Positions 771-12,280 of a stretch of 34,339 bases of DNA are shown here, one piece after another (positions within the stretch are counted from its first letter, which is position 1; each line of letters begins with the position of its first letter). Both the position numbers and the translations under genes were made by a program. The DNA lies in contig JAIKZD010000098.1 of NCBI GenBank assembly GCA_024682555.1, positions 1 to 34,339 of the forward strand. Reading direction: 5' to 3'. Origin of the DNA: Lachnospiraceae bacterium (GTDB lineage Bacteria > Bacillota > Clostridia > Lachnospirales > Lachnospiraceae). Below the pieces are notes generated by a model. That model saw only the letters and a list, made by a program, of their open reading frames with translations. It was not told the DNA's origin and did no database searches.

Positions 771-2129
771 ATGAGATATTCGGACAGACTGATCGAATTC
801 ACGGATAAGGCGGTATCACCTTTCCATGCCGTAGAAGAAACGGTAAAGGAACTGAAAGAAGCAGGTTTTAATGAGCTTGATCCCGGTGAGAGCTGGGCTT
901 TAAAGAAGGGCGGAAAATATTATGTAAGCCATCACGGTTCCACTCTTTTTGCATTCACCCTTGGAACAAAGGACCCTCTTAAGGATGATCTTCGGATCGC
1001 AACGGCCCATACCGATTTTCCCTGCCTCAGGATTAAGACGTCTCCGGATATCAATTCCTCGGGTTATGCCAGTGTGAACACAGAAATATACGGCGGTGCC
1101 ATATTAAATACCTGGCTTGACAGACCGCTTTCGGTATCGGGCAGGATAGCACTTAAGAGTGATGATATAAGACATCCCGAGATGAAACTTATCGATCTGA
1201 AAAGACCCGTTCTCACGATACCCAATGTTGCCATCCACATAAACAGGGATGTGAACAAGGGCTTTGAACTCGATCAGCAGAAGGATATGCTTCCCATGGC
1301 GGGCATCCTCCCCTCTTTTCTTAAAAAGGACGCAAAAAAGGATGACTGTTCCGGTGAGAAAAAACTTACGGATGAAGACAGGGATTATTTCATAAACTTT
1401 ATCGCAAAGGAAGCAGGCGTTAATAAGGAGGATATCCTCTCCTTTGAGCTTTGTGTATATAACTGTGAAAAGGGATGTTACGTCGGAGTGGCAAATGACT
1501 TTATCTCCGCACCGAGACTTGACAACATGACCTCCGTCTTTGCGGATCTTACAGGCATCACGGAAGGAAAAAGAGCAACCGGCATAAACGTCATGGCCAT
1601 TTTCGATCATGAGGAGATAGGCTCCCGTACCAAACAGGGCGCAGGATCAATGGTCCTTTCGAATCTGATCCTCAAGATATATTCCTCTCTTACCGCAGGC
1701 AAAAAAACCGGACCGGCTGGCGAGGAATTATTCCTTAACAAGCTTTCCGACGCCCTTCTTCTGTCGGTGGATGTGGGACATGCCTACCATCCTTATATGG
1801 GGGATAAATACGATCCCGTAAACAAATCTCTTTTAAACAGCGGCGTTGTCATAAAGGAAACCGCCGAGCAGAAATATGCCACAGATTCGGAAGCCATCGC
1901 TGTGATCATCCAGATGCTTAAAAAGAACGATATACCCTACAGTGTCTTTGTGAACCGGTCGGGAAAACCCTCAGGCTCTACCCTTGGTTCCATCGCTTCC
2001 TCATACCTGCCCGTAATGACCATAGACACAGGTGTTCCCCTGCTTGCAATGCATTCCGCAAGAGAGCTTATGGGCGCGGCAGATGAAGATGCCCTCTGTG
2101 ATCTTTTAAGGGTATTTTACAGTATCTGA
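771..2129 (+). CDS. M18 family metallo-aminopeptidase
   Basis: A 452-residue cytosolic zinc aminopeptidase of the M18 (aspartyl aminopeptidase / LAP4-ApeA type) family, which removes N-terminal residues from peptides. Visible metal-site motifs in order are AHTDFPCLRIK (HxD ligand), FDHEEIGSRTKQGA (the HEEIGS catalytic Glu and ligand) and VDVGHAYHP near the C-terminus, with the family's closing GSTLG segment. The frame is open further upstream, but ATG 771 is preceded by GGGAGG at 760-765 with ideal spacing, and the protein from there starts as the family does (RYSDRLIEFTDKAVSPFHAV). It probably forms an operon with the thioesterase. Its stop overlaps the convergent glycosyltransferase gene by 13 bp, leaving no room for a classical terminator between them. 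Confidence 0.92.
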   Translation: MRYSDRLIEFTDKAVSPFHAVEETVKELKEAGFNELDPGESWALKKGGKYYVSHHGSTLFAFTLGTKDPLKDDLRIATAHTDFPCLRIKTSPDINSSGYASVNTEIYGGAILNTWLDRPLSVSGRIALKSDDIRHPEMKLIDLKRPVLTIPNVAIHINRDVNKGFELDQQKDMLPMAGILPSFLKKDAKKDDCSGEKKLTDEDRDYFINFIAKEAGVNKEDILSFELCVYNCEKGCYVGVANDFISAPRLDNMTSVFADLTGITEGKRATGINVMAIFDHEEIGSRTKQGAGSMVLSNLILKIYSSLTAGKKTGPAGEELFLNKLSDALLLSVDVGHAYHPYMGDKYDPVNKSLLNSGVVIKETAEQKYATDSEAIAVIIQMLKKNDIPYSVFVNRSGKPSGSTLGSIASSYLPVMTIDTGVPLLAMHSARELMGAADEDALCDLLRVFYSI

Positions 2130-5100
2130 TCTTTGTATGAATCGGCATCCTTAATGAGAGTTTTGTATGCAGCTTCATCCGCAAGGAGCGCATGCTCCCT
2201 CTGGCTTCTGATGCTCTGTTCCATCACTGCCCTGTCATTAAGGGCGGATGTTAATAAGGCTGTCAGCCTGTCAGGCTCATCCTTTCCGAATATATGACCC
2301 TTCTCCGTATAGATCCCGTCATGCAGGGTCTCCCTGAAGGCAAGGATGAGCATATTGTTTAAGAAAGCCCGCCTTACGGCAGATACTATCTCATTTTCAT
2401 GATTGATATCCAGATAGATATCGCAGCCGGCAAAAAGCTCATCAAGCTTTGCCATGCTGACTCCCGGATACAGGATCACGTTTTCCCTGTCGCCGAAGGC
2501 CATTAACTTAGCCGACATCTCTGTCAGAGCCGCTATATGAAAACGGCAATCCTTAACCGCAGCCGTTATCTCATCAAGACAGGCAATGTTATCGGAGTTT
2601 GTACCGATCAGTATGTCCCTTCCGTACCTGTTTTCCCTTTCAAAGGGATAGACAAATCCAAGAAGAGTTATCATATCCATATTTGCGCCGGAAGCCCTGA
2701 GCTTTTCATAAGAGGACCTGTTCTGTACTACGATCCTTCCCGTCCGGGAAGATCTTCCGTTTAAGATTATCTTCATATTTCCGGGGATATCATCCTTAAT
2801 GTCCTCCTGCCAGAACAGGATGTCCCCGCCCGTTTCCTTCGGAAGGTCCTCGGATACAAAGAAGGGATAGGAAAGGGAATTATAGAAGAGCCTCCTGCCC
2901 GAAAGTCCTCTTTCCTTAAGATAAAAGATGGCAAACTCTGTCTTGTTCTTAAATATCAGGATCTTTCCCTTATAATTCAGGATGATATCCCTGGTAACAA
3001 AGTTTTCGACAATGATCTCTTTTCCATCCGCGGAAAAAAAGCTCCTGTTTATCCTTTCACCCCCGGCGCTGAAGGCGGTCCTTGAGTACAGGGCACCATA
3101 CCTGTTGTAGTGATCGCTGAATCTTACGATCCCCTTTTCGTCGTAATAGTCCACCGTCTTAACATACCTTTTATGGGATGGCTCCGCATAGAAGATCCTG
3201 CCCCTTTCATGGGACATATCCGTTATTTTTCCTCCCCTGCCGGTACCGCTTATCTCCCAGTACTTCGGGACCCTGATCCCGTTAAAATATCTGGGCTTTC
3301 CTTCATAGGAGGTTCCCGCCCGGTATCCCAGAAAGAATCCGTATACGGATTCCATCTCCCCGGGTATAAATCCGTCATCGGATAAAACGGCGGCAAAAAA
3401 GGATTTTCCCGTGCTCTTAAACGAAGCATAAAGATCCATGGAATCCCTTCCCGTATTATCAAGAAGCAGCACAAAGTCCGGAGTATCCGCCAAATCCCCG
3501 GGATCGGTGTTTTCTGCGGATCCGTTTATACGGATCTCATTTCCGAATGCTCCATTCTGGATATTTCGACGGGGCTCGTTTCCGCAGGTCTCATCATCGG
3601 AATTCCCAAGAAGCAGGGCCCACTTTTCCGCAACCTTATCTTCAAGATAAGCTGCCGCTCTTTTGTATGAGTTTTCACGTAAAGCCCCCATGTCTCCTTC
3701 CGTAAACAGCCTTATGATCCTGTCGGACAGGGCTCTGACATATTCCGCCGTTTCCCTTCCCTTTTCATAGGAGATCAGATAACCGTTCTCTCCGTCCTTT
3801 ATAAAGGTCCTGTTGCCGTACCTTACATCAAAACCTATGACAGGAAGTCCCGAACCCATGGCTTCAAGTACGGACAGTCCGAATCCTTCGCTGGTGGATG
3901 CAGATATATATGCCTCGTACTTTACATATACCTCATCCAGAACCTGCTGTCCCATTAAATGGACATATTTCCCGGCATCGAGAGCGGCGATCCTGTGACG
4001 CAGCCTGTCGGACTCCCCGCCTTCTCCGTATATGTCAAGGGTCAGGCCTGGAAGCTTTTTGTGTGCTTCGGCCACAGCCTCCACTATCCAGTCTATGTGT
4101 TTTTCCGTTGCAAGTCTCGAGGCAGTGATAAGGGACAGAGGTTTTCTGTAAGGGTCCTCCGTTGATTCCTGCGTGACCTGCTTCTGTGAGTCCGGTTCCT
4201 GTGAGACCGGATCCCGGACCGTATCACCCGGATTCTTCTTAAGTTCACGGATACACCCCACGGGTATGGTGACGATCTTTGGATCCGCTTCTAAATACTT
4301 TCTGAACTGTTCCTTTAACAGATCTCTCTGGGAATCCGTTGCACAGATATAGAAGTCCACGTTCTCATGCTGTGAAAATGGATATTCGTAATAATTGTTC
4401 CACAGGATATTGTCGTTATCCGTGGCATCTTCATTGAAATGATCGGCGTGGATGATTATGCCCGTTTTTGCGGGATGCGCATTCATGAGGACCGCCTGGC
4501 CGATGCCCGTTGTCCTGTCAAGCAGTACCGTATCGTTTTCGGTAAGGGAAAGGCTTTTTACAAGATGTGCCACAAGCTCTTCTTTTGAATAGAGGATAGT
4601 GTCCTTTAAACGGTACATGACATTTTCACCGTCTATAAACTCATCATAGGCGGTGCTTCCGTCCGTGTTGAAAAATCTCCGCTGATAAAGCTTTGCGCTG
4701 TTATCCTTCGGAGCATAGTATTCGGAGTAGATCCTTGTGCAGGTATAATAATCCTTTCTCACAAGGAAATTACCCGAAACAAGCTCAACCCTGTGAACCC
4801 TGTCGGAGGTCTCATCAGTGAAATAAACCGTATAAAAATCTCCCTTTCCGGGAAAGGTGCAGCGTCCTCTTTTTCCCGTTCTTTTAAAGGTATGATCCTT
4901 TCTGTCAAAGGTCTTTTCAAGGTCCTTCAGGGTAAAGGTTACCGGGGATATCTTCGTATCGGTAAAGAAGGTATAGAGCCAGATGATCTCATCATCATGA
5001 AAGCCCAGATGGGCCGTCATATGTTCGATATTCTCCCTCGGGAACATGTCCGTAAAGATGAAACGGGCCTTAATATTGCTCTTTCTAAACTGCAGAGCCC

Positions 5101-5167
5101 GGTAGCTCTGTGCATATTCCACTCCGCTGCTTGCAAATCCTATGCCGAGATTAAAGCTGTATACCAT
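2117..5167 (-). CDS. GtfA-GtfB fusion: O-GlcNAc transferase of the accessory Sec system
   Basis: A 1016-residue protein that joins both subunits of the enzyme that starts O-glycosylation of serine-rich repeat adhesins. Residues 1-522 are GtfA: NLGIGFASSGVEYAQSYRA at the N-terminus, the add-on domain that clamps the acceptor, then a GT-B family 4 domain with ITASRLATEKHIDW and the E-x7-E motif (SEGFGLSVLEAMGSGLPVI, Glu427/Glu435). Residues 523-562 are a polar linker with no Met. Residues 563-1016 are full-length GtfB, the substrate-binding partner: DGFIPGEMESVYGFFLG, IVENFVTRDIILN, GDILFWQEDI, FHIAALTEMSAKL, CDIYLDINHENE. In known systems these are separate genes. A 34-residue Gln/Ser/Asp-rich insertion (310-343) sits inside the GtfA part. 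Last gene of the aSec operon, 61 bp after secA2. The start fits streptococcal GtfA; the upstream purine tract (AGAAGGACAGG) is a fair ribosome site. Confidence 0.93.
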   Translation of the reverse strand: MVYSFNLGIGFASSGVEYAQSYRALQFRKSNIKARFIFTDMFPRENIEHMTAHLGFHDDEIIWLYTFFTDTKISPVTFTLKDLEKTFDRKDHTFKRTGKRGRCTFPGKGDFYTVYFTDETSDRVHRVELVSGNFLVRKDYYTCTRIYSEYYAPKDNSAKLYQRRFFNTDGSTAYDEFIDGENVMYRLKDTILYSKEELVAHLVKSLSLTENDTVLLDRTTGIGQAVLMNAHPAKTGIIIHADHFNEDATDNDNILWNNYYEYPFSQHENVDFYICATDSQRDLLKEQFRKYLEADPKIVTIPVGCIRELKKNPGDTVRDPVSQEPDSQKQVTQESTEDPYRKPLSLITASRLATEKHIDWIVEAVAEAHKKLPGLTLDIYGEGGESDRLRHRIAALDAGKYVHLMGQQVLDEVYVKYEAYISASTSEGFGLSVLEAMGSGLPVIGFDVRYGNRTFIKDGENGYLISYEKGRETAEYVRALSDRIIRLFTEGDMGALRENSYKRAAAYLEDKVAEKWALLLGNSDDETCGNEPRRNIQNGAFGNEIRINGSAENTDPGDLADTPDFVLLLDNTGRDSMDLYASFKSTGKSFFAAVLSDDGFIPGEMESVYGFFLGYRAGTSYEGKPRYFNGIRVPKYWEISGTGRGGKITDMSHERGRIFYAEPSHKRYVKTVDYYDEKGIVRFSDHYNRYGALYSRTAFSAGGERINRSFFSADGKEIIVENFVTRDIILNYKGKILIFKNKTEFAIFYLKERGLSGRRLFYNSLSYPFFVSEDLPKETGGDILFWQEDIKDDIPGNMKIILNGRSSRTGRIVVQNRSSYEKLRASGANMDMITLLGFVYPFERENRYGRDILIGTNSDNIACLDEITAAVKDCRFHIAALTEMSAKLMAFGDRENVILYPGVSMAKLDELFAGCDIYLDINHENEIVSAVRRAFLNNMLILAFRETLHDGIYTEKGHIFGKDEPDRLTALLTSALNDRAVMEQSIRSQREHALLADEAAYKTLIKDADSYKDQIL

Positions 5168-5187: not shown

Positions 5188-5230
5188 GACATTTTCATCG
5201 GTCCATCGGAATCCATCCGACATTTTCATC
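5188..5230. repeat. 12-bp direct repeat in the secA2-gtf spacer
   Basis: GACATTTTCATC occurs at 5188-5199 and again at 5219-5230, a 31-bp period. The second copy overlaps the secA2 stop codon and the first lies just upstream of the glycosyltransferase ribosome-binding region. It may be a slippage remnant or a regulatory element. No function is assigned. Confidence 0.6.
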
Positions 5231-7508
5231 AGCCCGTCAGAATATTTCTGATTATCCCGTTAAGAATATCTCTCTTCATATCCTTAAAGGATTCGTAGGC
5301 TTCCTTGTGATATTCATATATCGCATTTCTCTGGGCAGTGCTCCTGCCCGATACAGCCGACTGGAGCTGCTGGAGATAGTCAACCTGTTCTACCCAGGCA
5401 TCATCGATGGCGGAAAGTGCCGCCTCCCTGTAATGGTCTTCCCTGTTGTCGGATATGAGCTCTTCTCTCTCCAAAAGACTCTCTTCAACCTTTTTTATGA
5501 GGAATTCCCGGACGGCGGCTTTGTCCTTTGGGTCAACATGGTTTATGTCATCATGGAGCTCATAGCTTATGTTATCAAGCATGTATCGTCTGACCTCCGG
5601 CAGGGTGACCGTCTTTTTATCCTTTAGGAAGCGGTCGATATTGCCGGCCGCTATCTCGAGTATCTTCTGTCTGTCAAGGACCGCCTCGCCGTCCATCAGC
5701 CGGTTTCTGATATCATACATGATTTGTCTCTGCTTCTGGAGGACCTCATCATATTTGGTTGCCTTGATCCTTGAAAGCACGGCCTGTTCCTCACCGGTTT
5801 TCTGGGCATTGTTAACAAGCCTTTTTATCCTGCCTGTCGATATATGTTTCTTTTTCTCAAGCTTCTTCTTTTTCTTCTCATCAAGAGTGCTTAAATAAAT
5901 CTCATCCTCAAGGGATATATAAAATCTGCTGCTGCCCGGATCACCCTGTCTCCCGGCACGGCCTCTTGCCTGCCGCTCTATCCTGATATTCTGCATACGG
6001 CCTATTCCTATGACCGCCAGACCTCCCAGCTTATCCGTATCATCCTTCAGTTTTATGTCAGTTCCGCGGCCTGCCATGGAGGTTGCCACCGTCACCGCAT
6101 TGACATGGCCCGCCTCTTTTATCATCTCCGCTTCCCAGTAGGCATTGTTGGCATTTAAAACATTATGGGGAATATGAAGGTCGATGAGGGCACTTGAAAT
6201 ATACTCGGTCTCGCCAATGGTGGAAGCCACCACGAGTACGGGCTGGCCCGTTTCATGATGCAGTATCACCTCATCTATGGCAGCCCTGAACTGTTCATCG
6301 GAAGTCCTGAAATACCTGTCCTTATGGTCTATCCTTCTCATTGGCTTATTGGGAGGGATCACAAGGACCCTTTTATGGTACACATCCAGAAGTTCCTTCG
6401 AAGCATCCGATATGGTCCCGCTCATACCCGACATTTTCGGGAAAAGCAGAAACAGGTTCTGATAGGTTATGGATGCCATGGATCTGTTCTCCTGGCTTAT
6501 CTCGATGCCTTCCCTGGTCTCTAAGGCCTGATGGAGACCGCCCCTCAGCTTGACCCCGTGTACCATTCTTCCGGATCCGTTGTCAAGCAGCACTATCTCA
6601 TGGGCATCCGATACAACATAATCCCTGTCTACGGCAAAAAGATGTCTTGCACGAAGGGCAAGGGTCACATGCCTGTTGATCTCGAAATGTTCCCTTGCAT
6701 AGAAATTATCTATGCCGAAGAAGCTCTCGGCCCTTTTTATCCCCTTCGCCGTAAGATATACTATCTTTTCTTCCTTAACGAAATCCTCCTCGGGAATAAG
6801 GGTCCTCACAAAGAAATCCGCAAGTCCGTAAAGATTTGACTGGACCCTGGGAGATCCGGATATCACAAGAGGCATCTGGGCCGCATCAAGGAGTACCGAA
6901 TCCGCCTCATCTATCATGCAGAAATAGAACTCCCTCATGAACCGGTCCCCTGCGGTCTTTACCAGATTGTTAAAAAGATAATCAAATCCGAGTGTTCCGT
7001 GGGTCGTATATACGATGTCTGCCGCATATATCTCTTTTTTCTCCTCATCACTGAAACGCTCACTGGATCTTTCCCTGACCCCCGCCTTTACCGTCAGTCC
7101 CATAAAAGCATATGCGGGGCCCATTTCCGAAGCATCCCTGTAGGCCAGATGATCGTTTGCCGTGACTAAGATACAGCTTTTCCCCGTAAGGGCATTAAGA
7201 TACAGAGGAAGGGTTGCCATAAGGGTCTTGCCCTCCCCTGTGTTCATTTCTATGAGATATCCCTGATGAACCGCGATCCCGCCGGTTATCTGAACATCAT
7301 AAGGGATCTTTCCGAGCACTCTTCTGTCCGCCTCGCACATGGCGGCAAAGGCTTCTATCATGATGTCATCAAGAGTCTCACCCTCACTGAGCCTTTTTTT
7401 GAAGGCCTCGGTCATCCCCGATATCTCGGAATCCTCAAGGCGCTCATATTCTTCTCTCTTTTTTTTGACCTTAAGCATCAGCCTGTTGATTCTTCTTAAG
7501 CTGCTCAT
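5229..7508 (-). CDS. secA2: Accessory Sec translocase ATPase SecA2
   Basis: The motor ATPase that pushes the glycosylated serine-rich protein through SecY2. It has 759 residues, shorter than housekeeping SecA (about 840-900), and lacks the C-terminal Cys/His zinc and SecB-binding tail, as is usual for aSec SecA2. Motifs in order are Walker A MNTGEGKT (88-95), the DEAD-type MIDEAD box (198-203), MAGRGTDI (478-485) and QARGRAGRQGDPG (513-525). A Lys-rich stretch follows at about 544-555. It starts 6 bp after asp3, within the operon secY2-asp1-asp2-asp3-secA2-gtf, which fixes its identity as the accessory rather than the general paralogue. The ribosome site is weak (GGGATAACGG), so translational coupling to asp3 is likely. 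Confidence 0.95.
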   Translation of the reverse strand: MSSLRRINRLMLKVKKKREEYERLEDSEISGMTEAFKKRLSEGETLDDIMIEAFAAMCEADRRVLGKIPYDVQITGGIAVHQGYLIEMNTGEGKTLMATLPLYLNALTGKSCILVTANDHLAYRDASEMGPAYAFMGLTVKAGVRERSSERFSDEEKKEIYAADIVYTTHGTLGFDYLFNNLVKTAGDRFMREFYFCMIDEADSVLLDAAQMPLVISGSPRVQSNLYGLADFFVRTLIPEEDFVKEEKIVYLTAKGIKRAESFFGIDNFYAREHFEINRHVTLALRARHLFAVDRDYVVSDAHEIVLLDNGSGRMVHGVKLRGGLHQALETREGIEISQENRSMASITYQNLFLLFPKMSGMSGTISDASKELLDVYHKRVLVIPPNKPMRRIDHKDRYFRTSDEQFRAAIDEVILHHETGQPVLVVASTIGETEYISSALIDLHIPHNVLNANNAYWEAEMIKEAGHVNAVTVATSMAGRGTDIKLKDDTDKLGGLAVIGIGRMQNIRIERQARGRAGRQGDPGSSRFYISLEDEIYLSTLDEKKKKKLEKKKHISTGRIKRLVNNAQKTGEEQAVLSRIKATKYDEVLQKQRQIMYDIRNRLMDGEAVLDRQKILEIAAGNIDRFLKDKKTVTLPEVRRYMLDNISYELHDDINHVDPKDKAAVREFLIKKVEESLLEREELISDNREDHYREAALSAIDDAWVEQVDYLQQLQSAVSGRSTAQRNAIYEYHKEAYESFKDMKRDILNGIIRNILTG

Positions 7509-7514
7509 TTTCCG

Positions 7515-7943
7515 TTATCCCAACTCACTTATGATGATATTGTGAAATCTGAAGTAATGCCCTCCCCCGCTTATCAGCTGCATATTGTAGCTGTAGGTCT
7601 TTAAAGGACATCTGAAATCCATTTCCTTTCCCCTTATTATCAGTCCGTCAAACTCCTGACCGTATCGGTCAAGGAAGGAAAGCCTGACTATCATGCCTTC
7701 CAGTCCCTCTATATTGACACTGATATGGTATCTGCTCTCTCCGTCGATTATTGGTAAGGCCGGCTCTATCTTTTTTCTCTGAAAATTCACCGAGGAATAC
7801 CATTGTTTGATTATGGTTCCCGGGGGCATCAGCTGATTCTCGTATTCCACGTCATTGATCTTGTGAACCGTAAGCCTCGCCCCGTACAGATAGGTGTCCG
7901 AGGCATATTCGTTCCAGTATATCTTCCAGCTTCCAATCACCAT
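7515..7943 (-). CDS. asp3: Accessory Sec protein Asp3
   Basis: A 142-residue accessory Sec protein. Asp3 is a small beta-rich protein that joins Asp1 and Asp2 in a complex bound to SecA2 and the Ser-rich substrate. It shows the family features IYWNEYASDTYLYGARL near the N-terminus, a central WYSSVNFQRKK and a C-terminal FHNIIISELG. The assignment rests on these plus its position between asp2 and secA2. Its ATG directly abuts the asp2 stop codon (no spacer), which points to translational coupling and equal dosage of Asp2 and Asp3. Confidence 0.88.
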   Translation of the reverse strand: MVIGSWKIYWNEYASDTYLYGARLTVHKINDVEYENQLMPPGTIIKQWYSSVNFQRKKIEPALPIIDGESRYHISVNIEGLEGMIVRLSFLDRYGQEFDGLIIRGKEMDFRCPLKTYSYNMQLISGGGHYFRFHNIIISELG

Positions 7944-9452
7944 TTACTTATCCCCTCTGCCGAAATCCTCATTTATGATCATTCTGAAACGCGAAGAAAA
8001 CCAGGAGACTATGCCTCTGGTATTATCATTATGCCTTCCGTGAAGCCCCTTCCCGTATACCTTTACATTCACGCCGTCCAGATGGGAAAGAATGTCCTCA
8101 TAGGCTGTCTGGTCATAATCATCCTCGATCATGTAGGCAACGATGAATTTTGTATCTCCCCAGACGGTCTTTTCAAATTTGTCCCAGAATCTCCTGTTAA
8201 GCCTCTCTATCGCATCCCCGTCGCAACCGCCTTCAAGCTTCAGAAGGACATCAAGGGAGGTGGGAAATCCGCCGGGCCTTAAAAGCCTTTCATTTGCCGC
8301 AACATTTCCGATGCTCGCAAGGGGTTTTCCCAGTATCACCGCATGGGGCAGGATATCGGCACCGTAATACATCGCACCGAAAGATCCCATTGAGAGTCCG
8401 GAAAAGATCACGTCATCGGGGGTAAAACACAGCCTGTCCATATAGTCTCTTATGGCCGATAAGACCATCTGCTCATACTCCTCGTCACCCATATAGAAGC
8501 ATCCGCCCTCTACACGGGACTCGCTTATCAGCAAGAAAGGACAGCCCAGTTTCCGGATAAAAGAATAGCCCTCAAAGCTCTGCATCTTCTTGTATCCCGC
8601 AAAATAAACATTCAGGGGCGGTTTAAGATCCCCGGGATCGAAATAGCAGAACAGTTCTTCCCTGGAGGAGGTCTCATATCTGTCTCCGCCCGGCAGGAAA
8701 TATCCGTATTCCTTTCTGGAATAGCGGTTGTTAAGGGATATTATCTCAAGCTTTCCGCTGCCCTTTGCAAGCAGGGAAAAGAAAAGAGTTCCCTTTGCAT
8801 ATTCGTTCTCTATAAGCACTATATCGTCAAGTTCCGTATCATTGAATACCCAGGTATGAAGGACCTGGGAAATGCTTCCTTCCTTAAAGAGCATGACTTC
8901 CATGGATAATTCCACACTGTCGTCTTTCCTGTATTCAAGGAGGATATCGGAGCACTGTCCCTTGTGGATGGGGATATTGTTCCTGAAGCATACTATCTGT
9001 TTGAGCGTATCACCGTAATCACCCTCCAGTATAACGCTGCAGTTTCCGATGAAGCTTACGCTCCCTTTGTATCCCGGGGATACAGTGATGCTGTTTAACT
9101 GGTATTTTTCCCCATAGCCCTTTTTATAGAAAAGCTTCAGATCATTTTTTAGGAAACCGGGAATATCATCCTTCTGCAGGATCCTTCCCTTTTTTGAGGT
9201 AAAAAATCTTAAGATCTCTCCGTATACATAGACGTTTTCCGTAACGAAAAGACCGCCCGTGGCCGTAAGCTTCCATAATACGCTCACATCCTCAGACTCC
9301 GGGGTCTTATCAAGGATCACGACTTCATAAGCATCGGCAAGTCCCTCACGGTCGGCTGCACCGGTCATGATATCAAATCCCGCATCCTCGGGAATCTCAT
9401 ATCCGGCAATATTCTCTTTTTTTCCGAAAAAAAGAACGTTAATATCACTCAA
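7944..9452 (-). CDS. asp2: Accessory Sec protein Asp2 (putative GlcNAc O-acetyltransferase)
   Basis: A 502-residue Asp2 homologue. In streptococci Asp2 is both part of the export complex and an acetyltransferase that modifies GlcNAc on the Ser-rich adhesin. The N-terminal half is beta-rich; the C-terminal half is an alpha/beta-hydrolase fold with the nucleophile elbow SGLSMGSFGAMYYG (Ser354), an acidic segment IEDDYD (Glu443/Asp444) and HGRHNDN (His474 or His471), a plausible complete catalytic triad, so the enzymatic role looks intact. The start codon is TTG (9450-9452). It is supported by an AAGGTGA ribosome site about 8 nt upstream, by the protein N-terminus SDINVLFFGKKENIAG, and by the absence of another Met before residue 29. 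It overlaps the end of asp1 by 8 bp. Confidence 0.92.
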   Translation of the reverse strand: MSDINVLFFGKKENIAGYEIPEDAGFDIMTGAADREGLADAYEVVILDKTPESEDVSVLWKLTATGGLFVTENVYVYGEILRFFTSKKGRILQKDDIPGFLKNDLKLFYKKGYGEKYQLNSITVSPGYKGSVSFIGNCSVILEGDYGDTLKQIVCFRNNIPIHKGQCSDILLEYRKDDSVELSMEVMLFKEGSISQVLHTWVFNDTELDDIVLIENEYAKGTLFFSLLAKGSGKLEIISLNNRYSRKEYGYFLPGGDRYETSSREELFCYFDPGDLKPPLNVYFAGYKKMQSFEGYSFIRKLGCPFLLISESRVEGGCFYMGDEEYEQMVLSAIRDYMDRLCFTPDDVIFSGLSMGSFGAMYYGADILPHAVILGKPLASIGNVAANERLLRPGGFPTSLDVLLKLEGGCDGDAIERLNRRFWDKFEKTVWGDTKFIVAYMIEDDYDQTAYEDILSHLDGVNVKVYGKGLHGRHNDNTRGIVSWFSSRFRMIINEDFGRGDK

Positions 9453-11052
9453 AGGTCTCTATCACCTTTCTCCATCTTTCCAGGATATTCTCCGTCGTAT
9501 ACTGCTTCCCTATCTCGTAGGAATGGATAAGGGCTTCGTTCCAGTTGGCCAGACCGTCAAGGTAAAAATCAAGCACTCTCGGAAGATCGCTTGTATGGTT
9601 TATAACCTGGCCGTTCTTCATATGCTCCACATATTCCGTCTCGGTCCTTACGATCTGGGGGATCCCCATGCTGATACAGGATATCTGGAGATACAGATCC
9701 GGGACCTTTCGAAGATCCACCATAACCCTCTGGGTCCTCATGCACCGGCTGACGGACAGCTCATCGACACACTGTTCGAAAAAGAACCGGACATGGTTTC
9801 CGTCCTCATCCTCATCCTCTTCGATGAGCTCATTCTCGGCCTCCGTATAAAAAGCTCCCTCATCTGCGGGCATCATCTGTTCATCCGTATTTTCAAGGCT
9901 CCTTCTGACCTTTTTCTTGACCTTTTCCTCAAGATCGTAATCCGCAAGTCTGGTAAGAAAATGCACCTCGGCACTCCGGTTTTTGTCCATATACTGCGCA
10001 AGATACCTTACGGCATCATCAAAGATCCTGTCTTCTAACCCGTCAATGGGGAAAAGTATCTTCTGTACGTTGAGCTGTCCGCTGATACCGAAATCCACCC
10101 TGGAATCATAGGGAGTTATATCCGTTATCTTGTTCCTGATACTCTTATAGAGGATCCTGAGTCTTGCCGTGCTGGTCTTTGAGTCGGCGATGACAAAGCC
10201 CGCCCTGTTTACGATGGGGGAAAGCTTAAGGGTATCATTGATGTTTACCCTGTCCTCGAAAAACGAAAGGACGGTCTTTTTTCTCCTTAGGATATCTCTC
10301 AGGAATTCTATGTTCCTGTCATGCACCGCAATACAGAATATATCCTCATAATCGGTCATTTTTATATAGGCCTCGAGCACCTCTTCGATAACGGGAAGGA
10401 TGCTCCTGTATCTTAAGCTCTTAAACGCGCATTCCTTTTCTTTCCCGTCATACATTATCAGGTAGGTGTTCTTCTCCGGATTTACCTCCACGTGGGAATC
10501 CGAATAGAAAAGCCTCAGCTTCCATACCCCTTCGGGAGTGAGATATTCCTGGGTATAAGGCTTTCCGTCCTCATAAAGGATGGTGGAGGATACAAAACCC
10601 CTGTCATCATAGATATTGGATCTCTTAAGCTTTTCACCGTCGAAAATATCCACCTGAATGGGATTTCCGTCCTCTCCGAATTCTATCTGTGCATATTTCC
10701 TTTTGTTCACATATCCCATTATCACAAAATTCGTATATACAAATTCTATGTTTTCCGGCCATTTCAGATTGTGAAAGGAAAGAACATATATCTGTCTGAG
10801 TCTTACATGCTGAATGGAATCAAAGACCGAGATATAGGGAGCATGAAAAACACCCTGTCTGTGAAGAAAATGCCTGAAATTGGGAGCATAAGCCGGCAGA
10901 AGGATGCTGTAAGGATAGGCAGCCTTTCTGTTAAAAAGCTGCACCTGTTTAACGGTATCGTCGAATTCCGTCCTCAGACGTCTCGCATACCATTTCTGTT
11001 CATTTTCATGAAAAGAATCCGCTTTGTACCATGCGGGTATAAAAAAGATCAT
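9445..11052 (-). CDS. asp1: Accessory Sec protein Asp1
   Basis: A 535-residue Asp1 homologue. Asp1 has a GT-B-like fold without known transferase activity; it binds SecA2 and the acceptor protein and is essential for aSec export. The N-terminus MIFFIPAWYKADSF is the family signature, followed by a Trp/Tyr-rich region and the C-terminal half with Rossmann-like segments and ILERWRKVIETFE at the end. An acidic stretch (AENELIEEDEDEDG) near residues 412-425 looks like a surface insertion. GAGGAAACAGAG precedes the ATG. It begins 28 bp after secY2 and overlaps asp2 by 8 bp. Confidence 0.92.
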   Translation of the reverse strand: MIFFIPAWYKADSFHENEQKWYARRLRTEFDDTVKQVQLFNRKAAYPYSILLPAYAPNFRHFLHRQGVFHAPYISVFDSIQHVRLRQIYVLSFHNLKWPENIEFVYTNFVIMGYVNKRKYAQIEFGEDGNPIQVDIFDGEKLKRSNIYDDRGFVSSTILYEDGKPYTQEYLTPEGVWKLRLFYSDSHVEVNPEKNTYLIMYDGKEKECAFKSLRYRSILPVIEEVLEAYIKMTDYEDIFCIAVHDRNIEFLRDILRRKKTVLSFFEDRVNINDTLKLSPIVNRAGFVIADSKTSTARLRILYKSIRNKITDITPYDSRVDFGISGQLNVQKILFPIDGLEDRIFDDAVRYLAQYMDKNRSAEVHFLTRLADYDLEEKVKKKVRRSLENTDEQMMPADEGAFYTEAENELIEEDEDEDGNHVRFFFEQCVDELSVSRCMRTQRVMVDLRKVPDLYLQISCISMGIPQIVRTETEYVEHMKNGQVINHTSDLPRVLDFYLDGLANWNEALIHSYEIGKQYTTENILERWRKVIETFE

Positions 11053-11080: not shown

Positions 11081-12280
11081 TCAGATAAACGCCTCGTAGG
11101 AATCGAATGTTCTTACCGACACAAGCTCTTCCCTGATGTTGCACCAAAGGCTGGCCAGCATCATCGCGGTGGAGGGGATCGATATGAGCGAACTGTCCAG
11201 ATTCATATGCGAACAGACATACATCGGAATGCCGATGCACAGGCTCAAAACTGTCCCATTAACAGTACACATTATCAGGATCACCGCAAGCAGATAATTC
11301 TTTGTATCCTTTCCTGCGCGGATATCAACAAGACTGTCCCCGCTCTTTAAATACTGTTCCGAAAGATCCCTGGGATTTACCATGACAAATGCCAAAAAGA
11401 CGGTTATCAGATATATGATGATTATATAAACCGCGGTTCCCAGAGGTTTTAAAAGAGTCAGATTCTCGGAAAGCCAGATAATATCGGGGTCATCCGGCAT
11501 CACCATCAGAAGCGCGTTTACGATCATCTGAGGCAGCATAAAAACGGCCGAAGAGAACATTATGGGCATAACTCCCACAACGTTCAGTTTGAAAGCCATG
11601 TAATTCTTATCTGCATAGATGTTGTGGATCGAGATCCTCTGTACCGGGATCCTGAACTCAGAATACTCCATGAAAACAGTGAGCATCATCAGGATAAGAC
11701 CCATTACCAGCGAAGGAACAAGACTCATAAAGGAATGACCGTTTACGGCGGTAAAAAAGGTATCAAGTATGTTCACAAAAATAAGAACCGTCTGCCCGCC
11801 TGCCCCGTAGGTTTTATTTCTGGAAGCCAGCCACATGATGACCACGGCCCCGGTAACCATCTCAAGAACAGCTACCAGCATATTCAGATCGGTATATCTG
11901 TTCATTTCAAACTCCAGATGTCTCAGTCTGAGAACAGCCTGAATAAAGGCAATGACAAACACCATTACCGCAGTGAGTCTGTTTTTTCTTGCAGGCGAAG
12001 ATGAACCTGTTCCGTCGTTTTTGATGGAATAAAAAGCCTGAACAAGGATCGAAGAGATCATATAAGGGGAAAGTCCCAGGGCAAAAACAGACCGGCCGTT
12101 GATATCCCCGCCTATGGTGCTCATCATAAAGCTGTTCATGTCCACGATATCCCGATCCTTCATTATGGGTACAAGACCGCACATGGGTATCTTACGTCCC
12201 AGAACGTATATCGCTATTATCATTAATGTAAACAGGAGCTTCTGCTTTACAAGATCGTGGCTCTCTGAATTGTTTTCCAT
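11081..12280 (-). CDS. secY2: Accessory Sec channel protein SecY2
   Basis: The 399-residue membrane channel of the accessory Sec route. About ten hydrophobic segments can be followed, beginning with LFTLMIIAIYVLGRKIPM. The plug/TM2 region (GLSPYMISSILVQAFYSI) and the ELRIP-like segment EFRIPVQRISIHN mark it as SecY family. At about 400 residues it is shorter than housekeeping SecY (about 430), as usual for SecY2, and ribosomal-protein genes that normally flank secY are absent. It is the first gene of the machinery part of the locus, 108 bp downstream of the substrate gene and behind its own putative promoter. Only a weak ribosome site (GGGGACGGAAAC) is visible. Confidence 0.93.
   Translation of the reverse strand: MENNSESHDLVKQKLLFTLMIIAIYVLGRKIPMCGLVPIMKDRDIVDMNSFMMSTIGGDINGRSVFALGLSPYMISSILVQAFYSIKNDGTGSSSPARKNRLTAVMVFVIAFIQAVLRLRHLEFEMNRYTDLNMLVAVLEMVTGAVVIMWLASRNKTYGAGGQTVLIFVNILDTFFTAVNGHSFMSLVPSLVMGLILMMLTVFMEYSEFRIPVQRISIHNIYADKNYMAFKLNVVGVMPIMFSSAVFMLPQMIVNALLMVMPDDPDIIWLSENLTLLKPLGTAVYIIIIYLITVFLAFVMVNPRDLSEQYLKSGDSLVDIRAGKDTKNYLLAVILIMCTVNGTVLSLCIGIPMYVCSHMNLDSSLISIPSTAMMLASLWCNIREELVSVRTFDSYEAFI

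Follow-up and report, generated by a model that had tools for sequence, protein, structure and literature searches.

We analysed a stretch of 34,339 nucleotides (nt) from Lachnospiraceae bacterium, contig JAIKZD010000098.1 of the GenBank assembly GCA_024682555.1, hereafter called the window. On its minus strand lies gtfAB, which joins GtfA and GtfB, the two components of the initiating O-GlcNAc (N-acetylglucosamine) transferase of accessory Sec systems, in one open reading frame (ORF) of 1016 codons that runs from an ATG with no internal stop. It is the last gene of a compact accessory Sec operon, with secA2, asp3, asp2, asp1, secY2 and a gene for a Ser-rich protein upstream on the same strand (Table 1). 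GtfA/GtfB is called a two-protein complex in excerpts of a review (PMC6973325) and of a research paper (PMC7948813), and the window departs from the description of the complex as two separately encoded proteins in having one open frame. A first-pass annotation of the window, made from the letters alone, had placed a single polypeptide with both complete halves at this position without naming a strand, and the open frame agrees with it.

Both halves were assigned to their families by hmmscan against NCBIfam. The GtfA model TIGR02918 scores 652 bits (cut-off 574.6) over residues 2 to about 520, and the GtfB model TIGR02919 scores 484.4 bits (cut-off 338.3) over residues 568-1004; when overlapping pieces of the protein were scanned separately, the scores were 655.2 and 484.3 bits. 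Each half thus exceeds the curated cut-off of the hidden Markov model against which the first-pass annotation had proposed to check it. Pfam matches, namely the GtfA extended beta-sheet domain and GT4-type domains (PF22145, PF00534), all fall in the N-terminal half, and the Pfam scan of the GtfB half gave no domain match. Among sequences of the PDB, the N-terminal half matches the GtfA chains 4pqg_A (E 2.5e-152) and 5e9t_A (E 1.3e-151), and the GtfB chain 5e9t_B (E 6.1e-101) is matched by residues 567-1001. The GtfA half keeps 106 of the 111 columns that are invariant in 21 other GtfA sequences (0.955; median of the others 0.991, lowest 0.946), and the GtfB half keeps all 33 columns invariant in 32 other GtfB sequences (median of the others 1.0, lowest 0.846).

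A single-chain model was predicted with AlphaFold2 from an alignment of 23 rows, comprising 8 of the 21 GtfA and 14 of the 33 GtfB sequences collected. This composition was chosen because each half aligned correctly in it, an alignment of 49 rows having matched GtfB to GtfA. The model has a mean predicted local distance difference test (pLDDT) score of 80.4 and a predicted template modelling (TM) score of 0.73. The pLDDT falls below 50 in most of the linker and of an insertion in GtfA, at the positions given in Table 1, and in some short stretches elsewhere, such as residues 243-256. In Foldseek, the GtfA half reached a TM-score of 0.88 by target length against 4pqg_B, and the GtfB half 0.95 against 5e9u_D (root-mean-square deviation 1.8). 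The linker, which is predicted to be disordered, comprises 45 residues with a mean hydropathy of -1.26 and is the 8th most polar of 972 windows, in good agreement with the polar linker of about 40 residues first described at 3482-3601 (residues 523-562). The insertion in GtfA sits after residue 300 and ahead of the second Rossmann domain, is absent from all 21 other aligned GtfA sequences and contains a 15-nt tandem repeat at 4184-4214.

Table 1. Features of the fused gene and of the accessory Sec operon in the window
Feature	Position	Strand	Basis
gtfAB, fused GtfA-GtfB, 1016 aa (amino acids)	2117..5167	minus	Single ORF; TIGR02918 and TIGR02919 above cut-offs; AlphaFold2 model
GtfA half, residues 1-520, GT4 fold and extended beta-sheet domain	3608..5167	minus	TIGR02918, PF22145, PF00534; fold of 4pqg_B
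Polar insertion of 25 residues in GtfA, residues 316-340	4148..4222	minus	Alignment; pLDDT <50 at 313-336
15-mer at GtfA end, residues 518-522	3602..3616	minus	13/15 identical to GtfB-start 15-mer
Linker, residues 521-565	3473..3607	minus	pLDDT <50 at 523-560; polar; codon use; single copy in genome
GtfB half, residues 566-1016	2120..3472	minus	TIGR02919; fold of 5e9u_D
secA2	5229..7508	minus	TIGR03714, 940.1 bits (cut-off 930)
asp3	7515..7943	minus	TIGR03711, 119 bits (cut-off 67.25); PF15432
asp2	7944..9452	minus	TIGR03712, 459.9 bits (cut-off 210.75); PF16929
asp1	9445..11052	minus	TIGR03713, 431.1 bits (cut-off 136.1); PF16993
secY2	11081..12280	minus	TIGR02920, 252.4 bits (cut-off 249.6)
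Ser-rich repeat protein, presumed acceptor, 1091 aa	12389..15664	minus	Composition

The junction between the halves was compared with those of unfused relatives. For ribosome sites, 61 distinct gtfA/gtfB junctions were scanned, and where a junction offered several candidate gtfB starts, the one with the strongest site was used. The gtfB start lay 4-40 nt upstream of the gtfA end in 60 of these junctions and 1 nt downstream of it in one, gtfB was in the frame of gtfA in none of the 61, and the anti-Shine-Dalgarno pairing upstream of gtfB had a median of -12.6 kcal/mol (range -18.1 to -5.8). In unfused loci of the same family (L008-L012, L014, L017-L031), the gtfB ribosome site lies inside gtfA, directly 5' of the conserved C-terminal Trp codon. 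Junction spacing was taken as the distance between the last GtfA Trp and the conserved Asp in the first strand of GtfB. Of 122 loci, 2 were the window itself, 6 had no junction pair and 1 lacked the motif; the remainder gave 72 distinct junctions, with spacings of 38-74 nt that leave, modulo 3, a remainder of 2 in 43 and of 1 in 29, and of 0 in none. The window has a spacing of 162 nt with a remainder of 0, in frame and 88-124 nt longer than in the measured relatives.

The start signals of gtfB are likewise altered. At the original start position, a GTG overlapping the Trp codon, the window is open for nine codons and then meets a stop. The first-pass annotation had described the junction as free of any Met or ribosome site; the linker does hold no in-frame ATG, the first one after it being codon 577, yet two other in-frame start codons, TTG559 and GTG566, are present at or beside its end. 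These pair at -4.1 and -4.8 kcal/mol, which is background (inside the gene, median -4.1 and 5th percentile -9.3 kcal/mol; window's own genes, -5.9 to -9.9 kcal/mol). Four out-of-frame ATGs occur in the linker, the best at -6.2 kcal/mol and open for 4 codons only, and among the start codons of the other two frames over codons 505-570 none is stronger. As read from the sequence, the ribosome site of gtfB is gone in the window, and no strong one is left from which a full-length GtfB could be made separately. Codon use in the linker favours the shared frame by 16.3 and 10.8 nats over the other two (medians for the rest of the gene, 14.2 and 14.9). A single miscalled base cannot explain the fusion, because the junction is longer, in frame and without the usual start and ribosome site. 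That this is not a simple stop-codon error had been argued from the start, and the argument is strengthened by the finding that relatives keep gtfA and gtfB in different frames.

In order to learn how common the arrangement is, we surveyed genomes group by group, with 1966 genome look-ups in total, repeats and the window's own genome included; this genome is counted wherever it belongs to the group. Several of the surveys scored the best two to four candidates per genome, so that the numbers of genomes bearing the pair are lower bounds. Matches to the pair were found in at least 2 of 37 genomes of the window's genus (the window, fused, and G004, separate), in at least 14 of 397 genomes of its family and 17 of 392 of its order, in at least 28 of 29 genomes of one positive-rich genus, in at least 3 of 60 relatives of G1426 and 9 of 194 relatives of G344, and in at least 2 of 398 genomes across the phylum. 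With each genome counted once, at least 52 genomes of the family carry both halves, and a GtfA-GtfB fusion is found in one, the window; in the other 51, some loci are interrupted by contig ends, and the junctions were read directly in part and otherwise judged from positions and tabulated frame lengths, which are not always exact (G1535 is an example). In the order around G714, at least 66 of 395 genomes exceeded the GtfB cut-off and none was fused, because the frames (68 rows, 437-480 aa) are too short for a fusion; 30 loci of this order were read directly, and all have separate gtfA and gtfB. Among 22 matching plasmid records, 17 hold both halves at a single place that spans 80% or more of the query, each aligning as two pieces, and the viral contigs gave no relative. 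A scan of genome contigs gave nine loci, of which eight had both genes, separate in all eight cases. Among the matches listed for the surveyed genomes there is no second GtfA-GtfB fusion, and the rule of separately encoded partners, which the first-pass annotation had taken as its point of departure, is borne out elsewhere. Literature with open-licence full text, as far as its excerpts and the matches listed go, gave no description of a natural GtfA-GtfB fusion; the main text of PMC6973325 contains no word beginning "fusion", "clostridi" or "lachno". The fusion is unique as far as searched, and the arrangement is unusual, the enzyme itself being well known.

Two long frames met in the surveys were rejected as GtfA-GtfB fusions. 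The 848-aa frame of G1426 is a GtfB-GtfC fusion, and the longest open stretch in the 948-aa frame of G1535 is 357 codons. At the G1535 locus (L115), in an assembly of one contig, gtfA and gtfB are each fragmented across several frames, by error or decay. In G1560 (contig 4, 9475-12189), gtfB is directly followed by another GtfB-like match, a divergent one of 38% identity.

In a tree of GtfB, the window is sister to its congener G004, which has separate genes, with a support of 0.993. The fusion is probably younger than the split between the window lineage and G004, because their GtfB halves are sisters in this sequence tree. A grouping of both halves with G004 was dropped for GtfA, whose placement had a support of 0.12. 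In G004 (L046, 6143-7653), gtfA is split over two frames (ORFs 6143-6628 and 6541-7653) and gtfB is open.

We consider it probable that gtfAB is a genuine gene fusion which makes the known accessory Sec O-GlcNAc transferase GtfAB as one chain, most likely a working form of the enzyme. The analysis establishes the ORF, both families, the operon, the retained invariant residues, the altered junction and the fold predictions, and we infer activity, acceptor binding, quaternary structure and expression as follows. As an acceptor-binding chaperone without catalytic activity, the GtfB half would keep hold of the operon's own Ser/Thr-rich adhesin in its unfolded state. The GtfA half, which is of the GT4 type, would take up UDP-GlcNAc and add GlcNAc to successive Ser or Thr residues. 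The disordered linker would tether both halves, and two chains may pair into the usual 2:2 complex. The fusion would then take the place of the gtfB start that relatives put at the end of gtfA.

Several observations weigh against a genuine fusion. It is known from one draft assembly alone (159 contigs, 95.69% complete, 5.84% contaminated). The GtfA half is changed at five otherwise invariant positions (4, 11, 53, 133 and 245), near the low end of the range, and its tree placement is without support, the gtfA of G004 having been left out as split; that split itself indicates that damage to the locus can occur in this genus. No stop interrupts frame +1 over codons 505-547; of the ATGs in it, the best, at -6.2 kcal/mol, falls inside the span of values of the window's own genes, and the first 22 linker codons speak against frame +2 by only 3.8 nats. 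Lastly, ATG577 pairs at -8.3 kcal/mol, like the window's own genes, which leaves room for a shortened GtfB made by internal initiation.

An artefact of assembly or base calling, in which two real genes were merged by an insertion or deletion or by a mis-join, could account for a single occurrence in a draft with this many contigs and this contamination. The broken frames of G1535, the open frame +1 with its out-of-frame ATGs, and the GtfA half without a supported place, with which a chimera would be compatible, point the same way, and an error on top of a real insertion is also conceivable. One insertion or deletion on a normal junction, however, would be insufficient to add 88-124 nt and to remove the usual start and ribosome site, and the best start in the other frames over codons 505-570 opens 4 codons only. 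In addition, the GtfB half groups firmly with G004, whose ORFs around gtfA and gtfB are similar in size and order to those of the window. We therefore regard an artefact as unlikely. A second alternative is that the long frame is real and a separate GtfB is also made from an internal start (ATG577, GTG566 or TTG559), which would leave a partly two-protein enzyme. In-frame start codons are indeed present, and ATG577 has the pairing given above; this value is unexceptional against the 5th percentile of the gene background, a start there would cost the Rossmann domain of GtfB its first beta-strand (residues 565-569), and the other two codons pair at background level, so that we think this very improbable. 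Least probable of all is that the fusion is a non-functional step in the loss of a decaying locus: pair matches in only 2 of 37 genomes of the genus (a lower bound), one of them with split gtfA frames, and the five changed GtfA residues stand against 1016 stop-free codons with coding signal throughout, the intact invariant positions of GtfB, and open frames for SecA2, SecY2 and Asp1-3, each above at least one model cut-off.

If the fusion is genuine, its junction may hold traces of its history. The copy of the 15-mer (Table 1) at the start of GtfB lies at 3455-3469 (residues 567-571), 147 nt (49 codons) downstream. Of 500 shuffles, 4 gave a match as good as this at both ends, and the 15-mer is one of five short repeat families there; the repeat and duplication tests were chosen after the 15-mer match had been seen. 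The linker has no other copy in the genome. Its chained alignment with codons 567-626 scored 37.2. This score was reached by 1 of 500 dinucleotide shuffles, by 3 of the 851 other coding windows and, within the gene itself, by 1 of 77 further pieces. A stricter local alignment of the linker gave p = 0.037 against the N-terminal part of GtfB and 0.10 against all of gtfB, and p = 0.17 against gtfA and 0.56 against its C-terminal part. These alignments are no more than suggestive of a linker derived by duplication of the gtfB 5' end. A plausible course of events would be that an in-frame deletion joined Leu codons of gtfA and gtfB, after which the gtfB 5' end was duplicated and its first copy decayed into the linker.

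The closest known counterpart is the streptococcal GtfA-GtfB (Gtf1-Gtf2; 4pqg, 5e9t, 5e9u). Both components are near full length in the window and share the order, operon context and folds of that system; the fusion differs in being one chain with a 45-residue linker, in lacking a strong gtfB start and in the 25-residue GtfA insertion. The first-pass annotation had held that a fusion fixes a 1:1 stoichiometry, which is not a new property, the native complex being, in an excerpt of PMC12809243, already a tetramer of two GtfAB dimers with an inactive GtfB. The GtfB-GtfC fusion of G1426 (L084, 1486-3876, plus strand; 797 aa from ATG), with GtfA in a separate ORF upstream, is known from one draft genome. 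It matches TIGR02919 with 499.5 bits at 12-450 and NF007325 with 305.4 bits (below the cut-off of 491) at 465-794, and in the PDB 3rhz and four other Gtf3-type chains with E values down to 1e-69. As in the window, which belongs to the same bacterial family, the partner of GtfB is a glycosyltransferase from its own pathway; in contrast to the window, GtfB is fused at its other end to the second-step enzyme GtfC (Gtf3). The dGT1 of Streptococcus parasanguinis, described in an excerpt of PMC5063993 as one polypeptide with two catalytic domains, likewise unites two functional modules of an adhesin glycosylation pathway. According to the same excerpt, both of its domains are catalytic and serve later steps, whereas the window joins the initiating enzyme to its chaperone. 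Taken together, the window, G1426 and dGT1 suggest that fusion within this pathway is tolerated. The staphylococcal SdgA/SdgB (7vfo and others) are also GT4-type, glycosylate SD-repeat adhesins and are distant kin of the GtfA half, but they share about 20% identity with it, and the fusion scores 111.1 bits against the NCBIfam SdgA cut-off of 800. For L. reuteri, an excerpt of PMC6291802 describes a test of GlcNAc transfer by GtfA/B/C to the SRR1 region in E. coli, followed by wheat-germ agglutinin and mass spectrometry. Accessory Sec proteins are listed among the genes unique to Pseudobutyrivibrio in an excerpt of PMC6912079.

GtfA/GtfB serves as a model of how, in a glycosyltransferase, the chaperone subunit passes an unfolded acceptor on to the catalytic one. 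With both joined naturally in one chain, structural and kinetic studies would have a unit of fixed 1:1 composition, which could reveal whether hand-over takes place inside a single GtfA-GtfB pair or across the whole 2:2 complex. The known chemistry is unchanged by this fusion of two familiar partners, which is useful and mildly surprising and no new kind of system. A further and more doubtful idea is that GtfB has been fused repeatedly in this family, to GtfA on its N-terminal side in the window and to GtfC on its C-terminal side in G1426, as a covalent acceptor-holding scaffold of an assembly-line glycosyltransferase, with the linker a decayed duplicate of the gtfB 5' end and the covalent bond replacing the translational coupling of overlapping genes.

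The surroundings of gtfAB have the composition of an accessory Sec (SecA2/SecY2) adhesin-export locus, since secA2, secY2, asp1-3, the glycosyltransferase pair and the gene for the Ser-rich protein are clustered. Under the second SecY2 model, NF009082, SecY2 scores 272.1, below the cut-off of 353. In the fold search, the Asp1 structures 6lnw, 5vae, 5vaf and 6oyc matched the GtfAB model with E values of about 1e-12 to 1e-16, which is consistent with a glycosyltransferase-type fold shared by Asp1. Downstream of gtfAB no glycosyltransferase is encoded in the window, and the next ORF is convergent, with an overlap of 13 bases with the gtfAB 3' end. NF007325, the model closest to GtfC, had no match in the window's own genome, in a search that is not exhaustive because the model stays below its cut-off even on the GtfB-GtfC fusion. 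With its glycosyltransferase pair merged into one gene, the locus looks like the staphylococcal minimal locus as given in an excerpt of PMC7661464. The Ser-rich protein had no family model above cut-off in the NCBIfam and Pfam scans, and a search of it for an LPxTG-like pattern gave no match. Its residues 721-940 consist of 42% Ser and 15% Thr, and residues 481-560 of 24% Ser. At its C-terminus, a hydrophobic stretch is followed by a tail containing Lys/Arg.

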